Assembly: GCA_017436865.1 (NCBI GenBank)
Contig: JAFSCH010000114.1
Span: 1 to 44,896, forward strand
Direction: 5' to 3'
Origin: Lachnospiraceae bacterium
Lineage (GTDB): Bacteria > Bacillota > Clostridia > Lachnospirales > Lachnospiraceae
Length of the DNA: 44,896 nt
A model generated the notes under the pieces. The model ran no database searches and was not told the origin of the DNA. It saw only the letters and a list, made by a program, of their open reading frames with translations. Position 1 is the stretch's first letter. The number at the start of each line of letters is the position of its first letter. Made by a program: the position numbers and the translations under genes. Positions 39,472 to 44,896 of the stretch are shown piece by piece.

Positions 39472-39504
39472 AAAAAGCACTTCGGAATCCTCGAAGTGCT
39501 TTTT
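39472..39504. terminator. Bidirectional terminator between nagB and the radical SAM genes
   Basis: AAAAAGCACTTCG (39472-39484) and CGAAGTGCTTTTT (39492-39504) form a perfect 13-base stem with a 7-base loop and T-runs on both strands; it overlaps the stop codon of the last radical SAM gene. Confidence 0.9.
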
Positions 39505-40871
39505 TATTTGTCAAGATATTCTCTTGCAATCTGTACTGCTACCTGATTGAAAATTTCAGGGAAACTGTCGCAATATGCTTCGTATATATCTTTCTTACTT
39601 TCTATGGCCTGTGCTGCACATCCACCCCCACAAAACATCATGTACTTACAGTTTTTGCATTTTTTTATTTTATCTACCGTGCGTTGATTCCATGTCGAAA
39701 AATTCTCATTATAAATAAACTCCCCTTTCTCAACATCAACCTTGGCAACAATTGCTTCCTCCTTGTGCATCAAATCCCAGCAGGTGTACACATTTCCAAA
39801 AGGGTCCACAGTATACTTGCCACTGTGTGCAACGCAGAACTCTGATCTTAGTTCCATGAATTTTTTCTCTGTCATAAGAGGCTTTAATCGTCTGTAAATT
39901 CTGGCATATGCACTGTTATAGCAATAATTACTGCAACAATTTCCAATTTGCCCCATTACGGAAACATTAGAAAATACATTATCCTCTCTCTCGAAGCTAT
40001 CCATAGTAGCACAAAAATAGTAGGCAAAATTTGGATATTGCGTCAATCCCAAACGCTCATATTCTGCTGCCATTTGCGGAATCACATGACTATTTTCTCG
40101 GTTTACATTCGTTCTAAAAGTAACTGTTTTTCCTGTCTCTAGAGCTCGAAGTGCATTTTCTACAATACGATCAAAACTTCCATTTTTTCCAGACGGCTTT
40201 CTCCTTGCATCATGCACTTCTTTTGGCCCATCAATTGTAATTTTTACAGCCGTAAAATTATATTTTGAAATAATATCCAGATACTCATCTAAATAATAAC
40301 CATTTGTAATGACCGACATCGGAATCTGCTGTTTGTCGCATTTGTCGCAGGCGTAAGATACAATTTCTTTATTTCTCGGGAGAAAAGGTTCGCCACCAAA
40401 AAACACAAAATTCTTGATACTCTTTCCTTCAGCCACAAACCGTTCCATTTGCCTAAAGATAGCGTCTACCATGTCTCGACTCATATATGCTTTTAATCGT
40501 TCCGGATGCTCTTTTCTAATTACTCTTTCGAAACAATATTCACAGTCAAAATTGCACGCTAAAGTTGGCACAATGGACATAATGATATTCTGGCAATTAC
40601 AATCATGAATCTTCTTGCAAATGCCCGTTACACGTTCTATCTCTTGGCCCTCATAATCCAAAAACCCTCTTTGCATAAGAAAATGATATGTTTTTTCATC
40701 CATAGGTGGAAGAATTCTGTCATTTTTATCTGCGGTATCTAGTAGTTGCCCCAGGCTGTCATTAACTAACGCATACGCTCCATTTGCGCCGTTAAAAATC
40801 ACCCAGTGTCCTGACTGATCTCCCACCGGAAGGCAAATATTAAATTTGCTAGTTCTTACCTTTTTATTCAT
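39504..40871 (-). CDS. Radical SAM/SPASM peptide maturase with N-terminal recognition-like domain
   Basis: The 455-residue product has an N-terminal ~95-residue region (HWVIFNGANGAYALVNDSLG; MQRGFLDYEG) like the recognition domains in thioether-forming maturases. Its radical SAM core has CNFDCEYCF (about residues 112-120), FVFFGGEPFLPRNKE, ITIDGPKEVHD, and a SPASM C-terminus with clusters CVAHSGKYTVDPFGNVYTCW and CKNCKYMMFCGGGCAAQ. Such enzymes make thioether or C-C crosslinks in RiPPs. It is the last gene of a cluster with two other radical SAM genes and a Cys-rich peptide. Confidence 0.85.
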   Translation of the reverse strand: MNKKVRTSKFNICLPVGDQSGHWVIFNGANGAYALVNDSLGQLLDTADKNDRILPPMDEKTYHFLMQRGFLDYEGQEIERVTGICKKIHDCNCQNIIMSIVPTLACNFDCEYCFERVIRKEHPERLKAYMSRDMVDAIFRQMERFVAEGKSIKNFVFFGGEPFLPRNKEIVSYACDKCDKQQIPMSVITNGYYLDEYLDIISKYNFTAVKITIDGPKEVHDARRKPSGKNGSFDRIVENALRALETGKTVTFRTNVNRENSHVIPQMAAEYERLGLTQYPNFAYYFCATMDSFEREDNVFSNVSVMGQIGNCCSNYCYNSAYARIYRRLKPLMTEKKFMELRSEFCVAHSGKYTVDPFGNVYTCWDLMHKEEAIVAKVDVEKGEFIYNENFSTWNQRTVDKIKKCKNCKYMMFCGGGCAAQAIESKKDIYEAYCDSFPEIFNQVAVQIAREYLDK

Positions 40872-40899
40872 CCGACGTCTCCTATTGTTACTTTACTAT

Positions 40900-41913
40900 T
40901 TACGCTTGTTCCCTATCACACAACCAGCACCCCGGGTCCTCACGCATATAATTCCCATATGTTGCTAGCGCAGCACAGCGACTTCCACCCTGACACAGCT
41001 TTCGATGTCTGCAGCCCTTGCATGCCTGTGGTATCCGCTCTGCTCTTAACCTCCTTAGTACGTCGCTGTTATAATATATTTCTTCTAAGTCATTTTCAAA
41101 CACATTTCCGCAAGACAAAGCAAATTTACGACAAGGATATACTTCTCCTTTTTCATCCACAGCTAAAGCACGAATTCCTGCGCTGCAGTGATACGGATAT
41201 TCGCCTGATGCTAAAAACTGTAATGCACGTATGTTCTTGATTGCAAGCGAAACTTCATGGTTGATAGAATTTCGTTTTTCTGTCTCCAGTATCTCAACAT
41301 ATTCCTTTGTTTCCATCGGGTTCAACGGAGAAAGTACCTGATTATCCTGACATGGTACATATCTGTCACTCCATAAAACACCGACATGATGCTGCCTGCA
41401 AATCTCAGCCACCTCCGGAAATTGCATATAATTCATCTTATGCGCTGTAAAAGATACTCTTGTCGAGATACCATTCGCATACATGGTGTCTAACCCTTCT
41501 AAAACTCGTTTGAAATTTCCCTCACCACGAATAAAATCATGTGTCTTTTCATTTCCATCTATACTTACTTGAAGACACGGAATCGACAGACTGTTGAAAT
41601 CTTCCATCAACTCCTTTCCTAAGACTGTCCCATTTGTCATAATTCGGAAAGTAAATCTGTCACTGTATATTCTAATCAGTGCAAAAATTTCATGTATCTG
41701 CCTATGAAGAAAAGGCTCTCCCCCAGTAATATACACAAACGGAAGAACCTCTTTCTCTTCTTTTCTTATTCTGTTTATCAATCTCTCATATTGCTTGAGG
41801 ATTCTCTCTACATCATCCGCTGAAAGTTCAGAGGCGTTCGGCGCAATATAGCAATGCTTACACCGACAATTACACCTACCGGTGATGTGGATTTGTAAAT
41901 GAAACTGCGCCAT
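40900..41913 (-). CDS. Radical SAM/SPASM protein coupled to the Cys-rich peptide gene
   Basis: The 337-residue product has CNCRCKHCYIAP (CxxxCxxC at about 14-22), FVYITGGEPFLHRQIHE, QVSIDGNEKTHD and a SPASM tail (YHCSAGIRALAVDEKGEVYP; CKGCRHRKLCQGGSRC). Its ATG overlaps the stop codon of the precursor peptide gene as TAATG, so both are translated together. That coupling is strong evidence it acts on the peptide. It has no obvious extra recognition domain. Confidence 0.85.
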   Translation of the reverse strand: MAQFHLQIHITGRCNCRCKHCYIAPNASELSADDVERILKQYERLINRIRKEEKEVLPFVYITGGEPFLHRQIHEIFALIRIYSDRFTFRIMTNGTVLGKELMEDFNSLSIPCLQVSIDGNEKTHDFIRGEGNFKRVLEGLDTMYANGISTRVSFTAHKMNYMQFPEVAEICRQHHVGVLWSDRYVPCQDNQVLSPLNPMETKEYVEILETEKRNSINHEVSLAIKNIRALQFLASGEYPYHCSAGIRALAVDEKGEVYPCRKFALSCGNVFENDLEEIYYNSDVLRRLRAERIPQACKGCRHRKLCQGGSRCAALATYGNYMREDPGCWLCDREQA

Positions 41914-42092
41914 TAACAGTAACTGTTAGAAGGACAGTCGGTATAACACTCACAAGGACTATAACAATAACAATTAGGGTTACATCCATAGCAACCATCA
42001 CAGTTGCAGTTACAGCTTCCATAACAATCCGCTCCACTCGCTTCAAATCCCTGTGAATTCTCATACATGTCTACAAAAATCTGGCTCATCAT
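41913..42092 (-). CDS. Cys-rich RiPP precursor peptide (candidate)
   Basis: From the ATG at 42092 (GGAGGG 4 bases upstream; the ATG at 42104 overlaps that site) the product is 59 residues. A leader-like start (MMSQIFVDMYENSQGFEASG) is followed by a core with 12 Cys, mostly spaced by 1-3 residues and mixed with Tyr, Asn and Gly (CYGSCNCNCDGC, CNPNCYCYSPCECY, CPSNSYC). No GG-protease site or signal peptide is apparent. It lies between three radical SAM/SPASM genes on the same strand and overlaps the next as TAATG. The fit is a thioether-type Cys-rich RiPP; a metallothionein-like protein is a less likely alternative. Confidence 0.8.
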   Translation of the reverse strand: MMSQIFVDMYENSQGFEASGADCYGSCNCNCDGCYGCNPNCYCYSPCECYTDCPSNSYC

Positions 42093-42133
42093 ATTTCCCT
42101 CCATATATCTTTGACTTTTTATACTTATTAAAT

Positions 42134-43459
42134 TTAGTAATCACTTGACTGAATAATTCCTTTATCTCGTAATCCTTTTAATGCCTGACGGGCAACATCC
42201 AGTTCCAATTCAAACTTCTTGCTAAACTCATCCAAGGTAAATCCTTTTCCTCTAAAACTGTCTATGTATTCCGCAAATGCTTTTGTACAATATACGTGAT
42301 TGCCGCGATAAGAAATCCGCATACCAAAATCTTCTTCTACGAATCTCAGATACTCTTGAACTACAAAATATGTATCATAATTCCATCTTGGCAGATACTC
42401 CGATGTCTTTTGAAACACCAAAGGCAACCTTTTCAAATCAGAATACGTGTCCAAACAATTATATTTGCACTTTCTTGGAAGGCCATCCACACGGCAGCCA
42501 CCGCGACAGACCTCTCTTACCTCGCATCCAGAACATTCCGTTGGAATCATGGATTCGTCACGCCACTCACTCATTCTCTCCCAAATATCAGCAAACGGTT
42601 CTTTTTGAATATCTCCATACTCCTTAGAATCTCTGGCGCAAGCTCTAACCTTTCCTTCTGCCGTAACCACATAACTAGATTTCCCCGCTTCACAACCACC
42701 TGCAAAAGCAAATAAATCATATGCTTCCTGCGTTCCGATAGAACATGGAGTAATAGGCGACGCCGCTTTCACCTTCATGTCCAACTCGTCACTGACGCGA
42801 CAACAATTTTCCAAATAAACAGCAAAATCACCTTCATCTAACATATATTCATCAAAACGGTCAATCGCATTAATCGGTTCAGACACCCTAGTAATACTGA
42901 TGAGGTTTGCTCCATAACGTTCCTTTAAAAATTGGGCAGTTTCAAAAATAGAATGTAAATTAATGCGGGATACCACCATATTGAAACTGAAAATCACACC
43001 AACGTCCTTACAGATATCCATAGCCTCCACCACTCGCTCATAAGCTCCCGGAGTACTTACAATTCTATCAAACTCTTCCGGATTTGCGGAAGGAAAGGAT
43101 ACAAACAAGCCCACTCTGCGACGCACAAAATACTCAGCCATCTCCCTTGTAATAAGTGCTGCATTAGTATTAATAGCAATGCTTATCTTATTCTCCTGAA
43201 GAAGTTCCAATGCCGGCTTAATTTTATCAAATGCAACGAGCGGCTCTCCGCCCGTAAAGATAACACGTGCCGGTTGATTCTTTATAATCTTCTCAGCAAT
43301 CGCAAGATACTCCGAGGTATCCATACTCTTGTTCATACACGCCTTTACTTCTTCATCGGTTCGCCAATAATTGAAGCAATGAACACAATTGTGATTACAA
43401 TATGCGGTAACCTCCCAAAAAGCAGTAGGAGGATATTTCACCGTGCGATAATTTCCCAT
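42134..43459 (-). CDS. Radical SAM/SPASM protein with C-terminal winged-helix-like domain
   Basis: From ATG 43459 (GGAG 9 bases upstream; the ATG at 43474 has none and lies 14 bases from the predicted transcript start) the product is 441 residues. Motifs: TAYCNHNCVHCF (CxxxCxxC), VIFTGGEPLVAFDKIK, SFPSANPEEFDRIV, SPASM CEAGKSSYVVTAEGKVRAC and CSGCEVREVCRGGC. The last ~85 residues (FTLDEFSKKFELELDVARQA, LKGLRDKGII) are a PqqD/winged-helix-like segment that may bind the precursor. It is the first gene of the cluster. Confidence 0.85.
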   Translation of the reverse strand: MGNYRTVKYPPTAFWEVTAYCNHNCVHCFNYWRTDEEVKACMNKSMDTSEYLAIAEKIIKNQPARVIFTGGEPLVAFDKIKPALELLQENKISIAINTNAALITREMAEYFVRRRVGLFVSFPSANPEEFDRIVSTPGAYERVVEAMDICKDVGVIFSFNMVVSRINLHSIFETAQFLKERYGANLISITRVSEPINAIDRFDEYMLDEGDFAVYLENCCRVSDELDMKVKAASPITPCSIGTQEAYDLFAFAGGCEAGKSSYVVTAEGKVRACARDSKEYGDIQKEPFADIWERMSEWRDESMIPTECSGCEVREVCRGGCRVDGLPRKCKYNCLDTYSDLKRLPLVFQKTSEYLPRWNYDTYFVVQEYLRFVEEDFGMRISYRGNHVYCTKAFAEYIDSFRGKGFTLDEFSKKFELELDVARQALKGLRDKGIIQSSDY

Positions 43460-43494
43460 TCTTTGTATCTCCATAAAAATGTTCTATATTATTT

Positions 43495-43523
43495 ATAATA
43501 TCTCACGGATATTATAGTGTCAA
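43495..43523 (-). promoter_or_regulatory. Promoter of the radical SAM/Cys-rich peptide cluster
   Basis: On the minus strand a perfect TTGACA (43523-43518) and TATTAT (43500-43495) are separated by 17 bases. Immediately upstream (43543-43555) is CCGTTAGTCAAAT, repeated at 44711 upstream of the toxI promoter. Confidence 0.75.
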
Positions 43524-43947: not shown

Positions 43948-44508
43948 CTATTGATATTCTTGTAATTTCTTTAGTAAGTACTGTTTACACAATTTTTCTA
44001 ACTTTTGATAATCCAACGCTGATTTTACATAACCTGCAGTCAAATCATTTGCGGCCTTTTGCTTATATAACAAATTTGCATTTGCTATAATCTTTTCTCG
44101 ATTCTTACGAATGAATATCATCTCATTTTGAATAAGGTCTTTATATGTACTGTCCGTTTCATTTTCCAAATCATATAATTTTAATTCAGTTTCCGGAACT
44201 GGAATCATATGACTAATTCTTAATGTTCCTTTTAATTCTTTTTCGCCAGATGCATTCTTCACTACAATACGAATAATCGGTACTATGCTCTTTTTTATAA
44301 CCTTACTTTCTCCAGCAATTTGATAGTCAGAATCTTTTGGCGATGACAGAGGAATGTAATATTTGTACTCGCCTATTTGCATTACAACACCTAAATATTT
44401 TCTGGTATGCGTTCTTGCATTTATTTTATTAGAGTAAACATTAGGATACTGTTCGCGGAGCCATTCCACATATTCATCAGAAACACTATACAGTTTAAAT
44501 TGTTCCAC
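43948..44508 (-). CDS. toxN: Type III toxin-antitoxin endoribonuclease, ToxN/AbiQ family
   Basis: The 186-residue product has the ToxN/AbiQ pattern: KLYSVSDEYVEWLREQYPNV near the start, TRKYLGVVMQIGEYKYYIPL followed by SSPKDSD (the active-site region), RISHMIPVPETELKLYDL and a C-terminal helical half (NREKIIANANLLYKQKAAND). These are RNases held inactive by a repeated RNA antitoxin and often cause phage-abortive infection. Start is GTG 44508 with AAGGTGAT upstream. The toxI repeats and terminator lie directly upstream, as expected. Confidence 0.9.
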   Translation of the reverse strand: MEQFKLYSVSDEYVEWLREQYPNVYSNKINARTHTRKYLGVVMQIGEYKYYIPLSSPKDSDYQIAGESKVIKKSIVPIIRIVVKNASGEKELKGTLRISHMIPVPETELKLYDLENETDSTYKDLIQNEMIFIRKNREKIIANANLLYKQKAANDLTAGYVKSALDYQKLEKLCKQYLLKKLQEYQ

Positions 44509-44536
44509 GAAATCACCTTCTTCATTAGTATATAGG

Positions 44537-44645
44537 AAAAAATAAGGGAGCTAAATGCTCCCTCCGAGTTTAAAATTCTCCACTTGTATGGCAGGAGCTC
44601 TCCCGAGTTTAAAATCTTCCACTTATATGGCAGGAACTCTCCCGA
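44537..44645 (-). ncRNA. toxI: toxI antitoxin RNA: two 39-base tandem repeats plus terminator
   Basis: Two tandem 39-base units lie at 44607-44645 and 44568-44606 and share TCGGGAGAGYTCCTGCCATA and AAGTGGARRATTTTAAAC, differing at four positions. A partial unit leads into the hairpin GGGAGC/GCTCCC (44546-44562), followed on the minus strand by TTATTTTTT. This is the standard type III layout (promoter, RNA repeats, leaky terminator, toxN); the toxin trims the transcript into repeat-length antitoxins. Confidence 0.88.
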
Positions 44646-44756: not shown

Positions 44757-44896
44757 TGAACCGACCCCCAAAAGTTAGACCAAAAAATCTAACGATTGGG
44801 AGGTCGGTTTTTTAATGGCAAAATACAGTTTTGAATTTAAGAAGAAGGTTGTGGAAGAATATCTGCTGGGAAGAGGAAGCACTCACGAATTAGCAA
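44757..44896 (+). mobile_element. Left end of a second IS3/IS150-type element
   Basis: TGAACCGACCCCCAAAAG begins at 44757 and matches the inverted right terminus at 124-141. It is followed by a ribosome site and the orfA start at 44815. Segments 44761-44769 (CCGACCCCC) and 44798-44806 (GGGAGGTCGG region), and GTTAGA/TCTAAC, are complementary, so RNA read in from outside would hide the orfA ribosome site. The element continues beyond the window. Confidence 0.85.
44815..44896 (+). CDS. IS3-family transposase OrfA, N-terminal start (partial)
   Basis: ATG at 44815 opens MAKYSFEFKKKVVEEYLLGR followed by GSTHELA, the N-terminal helix-turn-helix region of IS3/IS150-type OrfA (sequence-specific binding of the terminal repeats). 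GGGAGG lies upstream. It runs off the window edge. Confidence 0.85.
   Translation, partial: MAKYSFEFKKKVVEEYLLGRGSTHELA

Follow-up and report, generated by a model that had tools for sequence, protein, structure and literature searches.

The 44,896-nucleotide contig JAFSCH010000114.1 of a Lachnospiraceae bacterium (assembly GCA_017436865.1), referred to below as the window, contains on its minus strand a four-gene unit (positions 39504–43459), in which the gene of a Cys-dense peptide lies among the genes of three radical S-adenosylmethionine (SAM)/SPASM enzymes, named here A, B and C. We consider it probable that this unit is a thioether-forming maturation operon of a ribosomally synthesized and post-translationally modified peptide (RiPP), in which three SPASM enzymes serve one peptide. 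Its assignment as a RiPP system as such is well supported by sequence comparisons and structure models, because the peptide gene is translationally coupled to B, the predicted fold of C resembles that of the thioether enzyme CteB, and the relatives of B and C are located beside Cys-rich substrates. A Cys-rich precursor gene adjoining a gene of a SPASM-type radical SAM enzyme, the arrangement by which thioether RiPP systems are recognized, is present in the unit. An earlier interpretation made without database searches (the sequence-only reading) had placed four minus-strand genes here in the order A, peptide, B, C, and the re-check of open reading frames (ORFs) bore out their coordinates.

The Cys-dense peptide

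The peptide gene (41913–42092, or 42089, minus strand) starts behind a GGAGGG ribosome site and encodes 58–59 residues. The translation contains 12 cysteines, the number counted before, together with seven tyrosines and no Lys, Arg, His or Trp, so that Cys makes up 21% of the 58-residue form. When all six frames of the whole window were scanned, only one of the 15512 open 59-residue segments had at least 12 cysteines, and it was the peptide itself. The peptide is likely a precursor with a leader of about 21 residues and a core of 37. The cysteines of the core, CYGSCNCNCDGCYGCNPNCYCYSPCECYTDCPSNSYC, are arranged in four CX3C, four CXC, two CX2C and one CX5C spacings, and the peptide includes the sequence CDGCYGC, which consists of two CxGC steps, as well as two Asp-Cys steps. 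Among 20000 shuffles of the core, 0.03% were free of CC pairs and had the first ten Cys gaps equally short.

The peptide did not match any family in Pfam (up to E 1) or NCBIfam (up to E 10), including the metallothionein models, and it was found neither in plasmids nor in the PDB, with no match confirmed in viral contigs. At E 0.1 or better matches were present in 34 of 392 genomes of the order, including its own, and the best match in another genome (E 0.0012) had stops inside. In the 19 loci of weak matches (L022–L040, about 1.5 kb per side) none of the ORFs had a match to any of the three enzymes at E 1e-4, and two ORFs matched the peptide at about 3e-5 when a four-sequence set was used as the reference. 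We take the weak matches as reflecting Cys composition. The sequence-only reading had named homologues of the peptide without the enzymes, or its conservation as a metallothionein-type protein, as findings that would speak against it; neither was seen in these searches, which were small ones for a 59-residue peptide.

The high Cys content (21%) and the four CXC and two CX2C steps could also suit a metallothionein-like metal-binding protein, or an Fe-S donor that serves the enzymes instead of being their substrate. This role is very improbable, as metallothionein families do not match the peptide and it has seven tyrosines, and as the relatives of B are linked to the tails of other proteins with similar Cys spacing, as described below.

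The three enzymes and their relatives

The earlier assignment of three radical SAM/SPASM enzymes agrees with the domain searches, in which Pfam Radical_SAM was found in A, B and C, and the SPASM domain was found by Pfam in A and B, while for C it was the general SPASM model TIGR04085 that detected it (55 bits against a cut-off of 27). The CX3CX2C motif was invariant in alignments of the enzymes with their relatives. All three enzymes scored far under the cut-offs of named maturase families among the best 25 NCBIfam families for each. Relatives were sought in a genus sample of 38 genomes (37 congeners and the genome of origin) and in draws of 392 genomes from the order, 397 from the family and 274 from the class, with the genome of origin counted; the draws overlap and are uneven, and the family draw was searched with B and C and the order draw with A.

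Enzyme B (40900–41913, minus strand, 337 amino acids) is without an N-terminal recognition domain. Its start overlaps the stop of the peptide gene in the sequence TAATG, as had been noted before, and it has no ribosome site of its own. Its closest named family is the ACGX maturase TIGR04340, which was rejected at 153 bits against a cut-off of 400. Relatives of B were present in eight of the 38 genus genomes at 1e-25 (best other E 4e-38), in 6/397 of the family at 1e-30 and in 5/274 of the class at 1e-40. The set genome_contigs contained seven relatives with 24–29% identity and plasmids 25 records, all below 60% identity, while viral contigs had no relative. The nearest ones, with E 1.5e-55 or better and 35–40% identity, came from seven other genomes, of which the family draw contributed three and the class draw four.

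Each of these seven nearest relatives follows a longer gene, and their start codons lie 1, 1, 2, 2, 2, 11 and 11 bases past its stop, with two of the starts being TTG codons picked by hand (L041 6938–9663, L042 9263–12096, L043 8030–10527, L101 5737–7358, L102 5464–8035, L103 5639–7802 and L104 6408–8383). Each upstream product carries a Ser/Gly/Cys tail at its end, as in CSSCGGGCSSCGGGCSSCGGGGSW and SSCSSCSSCSSCSSCSSCGGCGGGD; six tails have three or more CxxC motifs, while that of L042, the seventh, has one CSSC only. Three of the upstream products match DUF2207 and one passes TIGR04222 (46 bits, cut-off 43), two have sub-threshold DUF2207 or TIGR04222 matches only, and one has neither; we read the three without a passing match as membrane proteins, too. 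As a control, 337 ORFs of at least 100 amino acids from 29 fetched loci, a non-random sample, were scanned for three or more CxxC motifs in the last 40 residues, and the only six that had them were the neighbours of B relatives.

In a tree of 28 rows B and the seven relatives shared a branch with support of 97/93, and nine rows that we labelled as ACGX-type, one of which is annotated as acgM, formed a separate branch (100/100), which was the neighbour of the B branch at 92/90. The support for the seven relatives without B was 70/69 only, hence the position of B among them is loose. The next tier of relatives was of the ACGX type or of other kinds. Unlike its seven relatives, B begins where a gene for a free Cys peptide ends, and not behind a longer gene with a CxxC tail. 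Because B starts at the stop of a Cys-dense gene, and because the peptide holds CDGCYGC, the window peptide looks in its sequence like a free-standing counterpart of the CxxC tails, although it differs from them as a free peptide that also has CX3C and CXC steps. As a tentative proposal, which we hold to be a serious possibility short of probable, B may belong to a radical SAM/SPASM group that cross-links the CxxC tails of DUF2207/TIGR04222-like membrane proteins, and the unit in the window would be a derived form, in which the tail was freed as a peptide and two more maturases were added, each reading a different Cys spacing.

Enzyme C (39504–40871, minus strand, 455 amino acids) starts at 40871 behind AGGAG. 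Its predicted structure (predicted local distance difference test score, pLDDT, of 83.4) matches CteB over residues 8–452, and few alignment rows span the N-terminal part in which this match begins. The fold match supports the N-terminal recognition-like region claimed by the sequence-only reading, and hhalign, used with two PqqD-like proteins to look for a RiPP recognition element (RRE), lacked the power to show one. As C models on CteB end to end, it is the likely leader-binding partner. The models of TIGR04463, Clo7bot, CcpM and SCIFF were rejected for C with 155, 99, 71 and 84 bits against cut-offs of 525, 600, 500 and 425, as were those of PapB (110 bits, cut-off 340) and CefB (NF038107, 153 bits, cut-off 600).

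Relatives of C were found in 3/38 genus genomes at 1e-25 and in 4/397 family genomes at 1e-35; the closest, from two family genomes, had about 30–32% identity. Plasmids held eight records, all below 60% identity, and viral contigs one partial relative with 32% identity. A small Cys-containing peptide resembling Nif11 leaders adjoins the C relatives in three of four loci (L059, L060 and L063, not L061), with a likeness that is under the cut-off (20 bits versus 32 in the one peptide scanned). Two congeners also have true CefB genes, which score 625 and 620 bits against a cut-off of 600. These genes adjoin CefA peptides that reach 43 and 63 bits (cut-off 30) and have a cysteine at every fifth position (L092 2468–2818 and L093 6974–7369). 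Because its relatives adjoin Nif11-looking and CefA peptides, C is placed among the enzymes for Cys-containing peptides. A likeness of the window leader to CefA leaders was tried and not used, since 4% and 11% of shuffles scored as high. In L063 (10318–15551), a locus of one family genome, three C-like maturase genes stand in tandem, their first 270 residues being 31–33% identical to C, together with a small Nif11-looking peptide.

Enzyme A (42134–43459, minus strand, 441 amino acids) starts at 43459 behind GGAGA, while a longer ATG at 43474 is without a ribosome site. Its C-terminal extension of about 115 residues had been described as a winged-helix tail; helix-turn-helix-like matches do exist there, but all are sub-threshold (E 0.0035) and the predicted structure is poor in this part, which leaves the description less well supported. 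The hhalign comparison of A with PqqD-like proteins was uninformative about an RRE. The best NCBIfam model for A was NirJ2 (112 bits, cut-off 500). It was found in 2/38 genus genomes at 1e-20 and 2/392 order genomes at 1e-25, each time with 27% identity in the genome other than its own; plasmids had no relative at 1e-20 and viral contigs one with 26% identity. Judged by sequence, A is remote from every relative found.

The complete A-peptide-B-C unit was seen in its own genome only, when searches with each enzyme covered the 38 genus genomes and the larger uneven draws. The fetched neighbourhoods of B and C relatives did not contain A, B and C together, and the DNA of the cluster had no match in phages; the reading of plasmid records for B and C covered five regions. 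The absence of the unit from the remaining genus sample, and the contig end about 1.4 kb upstream of A with a type III toxin gene in between, would fit a decayed or recently acquired remnant, which came in together with the toxin gene, makes no product and has lost its exporter. We consider this improbable, as the four frames are open and have ribosome sites or coupling, and the G+C content of the unit (0.38–0.41) is similar to that of the neighbouring genes.

Proposed maturation and known systems

In the maturation scheme that we favour, MSQIFVDMYENSQGFEASGAD would be the leader bound by the RRE-like N-terminal domain of C, and B and A, which are without an N-terminal domain of that sort, would reach the same core either in a complex with C or directly. 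Each enzyme would convert SAM to a 5′-deoxyadenosyl radical, which would abstract hydrogen from a residue close to the cysteines; this acceptor would then be joined to a Cys sulphur. Because the relatives of B sit on CxxC tails, the most likely site of B would be CDGCYGC with its CX2C spacing. Maturation would give an acidic peptide with dense bridging, which would either stay inside the cell or leave it through an exporter whose gene lies elsewhere, conjecturally one of the three C39-type exporters on contigs C77, C101 and C108 of the same genome.

To the sequence-only reading the three maturases had suggested that the product is unusually heavily cross-linked, and it may be so. Three enzymes may still make fewer than three sets of links, because thuricin CD, whose two radical SAM enzymes act as a complex, strictly requires only the radical activity of TrnC (PMC12093266). 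The same observation would agree with cross-linking by one or two of the enzymes alone, the others being scaffolds or catalysing different reactions on the core, for instance epimerization or C-C links at the seven tyrosines. In comparisons with solved structures, A and B match SuiB, SkfB, PqqE and the epimerase EpeE in sequence or in fold, which does not fix the reaction type. On the other hand, A, B and C all retain the radical SAM and SPASM cysteines, and we regard such a limited role of the three enzymes as somewhat unlikely.

Several observations weigh against a thioether-forming operon of three enzymes. The unit is known from one genome, hence there is no covariation, and the bin of this genome has 7.68% contamination, which makes the host of the contig uncertain. 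Only the position and order of the genes connect A with the peptide. A Pfam scan of 12 neighbouring ORFs detected no peptide exporter or protease, in agreement with what had been noted before, with the contig end at 44896 leaving one side largely unseen. A strict assignment of one enzyme to one spacing is disfavoured, because PapB accepts Cys-Xn-Asp with n = 0–6 (PMC9413430). Finally, the cross-links and their S-C nature are inferred.

Among known systems, the ranthipeptide pairs CteA/CteB (SCIFF) and PapA/PapB are similar in having a SPASM enzyme and a short Cys-rich peptide, and their N-terminal RRE has a putative counterpart in C, but they have one enzyme per peptide in contrast to the three observed here, and the window peptide matches no family. 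The ACGX system (acgA/acgM, TIGR04341/TIGR04340) also has a Cys-repeat peptide just upstream of an enzyme from the sister branch of B, while the window peptide is without the ACGX repeat and does not match TIGR04341 (Roseburia acgA as a control scored 74, cut-off 28). CefB is remote kin of C with true CefB/CefA pairs in the same genus, but the cysteines of the window peptide are not at every fifth position and it does not match NF038108; the CefA/CefB loci of the genus have one radical SAM enzyme and, as seen by eye, an ABC transporter gene.

Thuricin CD resembles the unit in that two dissimilar radical SAM enzymes (TrnC/TrnD) act on common precursors (PMC12093266), and differs in having two enzymes, two precursors and adjacent ABC transporter genes (PMC8172795). 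Cluster 115, in which 3–5 radical SAM enzymes accompany one Cys peptide containing Asp-Cys, is likewise similar in its several enzymes and in the Asp-Cys steps, two of which occur in the window peptide; it has a peptidase and a hydrolase, and the likeness is drawn from its description (PMC9062424). Because clusters with this many radical SAM enzymes are thus already in print, the unit adds a variant and not a new category. TIGR04222 membrane proteins with Cys tails are proposed substrates of multinuclear non-heme iron-dependent oxidative enzymes (MNIOs) (PMC12452194); the relatives of B also adjoin proteins with Ser/Gly/Cys tails, but with a radical SAM enzyme in place of an MNIO, and the window substrate is a free peptide. 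A literature search found no work linking DUF2207 to radical SAM enzymes or RiPPs, and for TIGR04222 only that MNIO paper.

Surroundings, other radical SAM loci and significance

The single promoter proposed for the unit, TTGACA-17-TATTAT, is present at 43495–43523 (minus strand, 11 of 12 matches) and ranks first among 20 promoter-like sites, but chance alone would give as many (18.5 ± 4.8). An inverted repeat of 14 pairs at 39472–39504, a possible terminator called for the plus strand only, is located between the gene of C and its downstream neighbour, the two genes being convergent. This downstream gene had no match in the congener G196, and the flanking DNA matched other genomes in short pieces only. 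An Rfam search gave no match. The gene upstream of A is a ToxN/AbiQ homologue of a type III toxin-antitoxin locus (43948–44645, minus strand; PF13958 125 bits, PADLOC AbiQ 146 bits), preceded by a 39-bp repeat in 2.1 copies and a terminator-like hairpin. An ORF on the plus strand (44815–44896) runs off the contig end; by eye it has the look of a transposase start, and its 27 residues are without a Pfam match.

The same genome has a CcpM-like system under the cut-offs (L046, G000:C77:18000–37000, and L105), with 494 bits for CcpM (cut-off 500), 180 for TIGR04066 (cut-off 200) and 35 for TIGR04069 (cut-off 70). An S8 peptidase and two additional genes of the SPASM type accompany this system, and the contig later encodes a C39 exporter. 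The genome also has a run of five consecutive radical SAM genes (L047 661–10955, G000:C61), three of the SPASM type and two best matching B12-type families, next to an apparent ABC transporter. On an Indioceanicola plasmid (L084 1165–5020) three annotated radical SAM genes surround a PqqD-type gene.

With three dissimilar SPASM enzymes and one very short substrate that has few Cys spacings, the unit would be a small system for testing the division of labour among maturases. The relatives of B suggest that radical SAM enzymes act on membrane proteins at their C-terminal tails, in parallel to the MNIO chemistry proposed for TIGR04222 tails. If the B group does act on CxxC tails, RiPP-type modification would be carried on whole membrane proteins.
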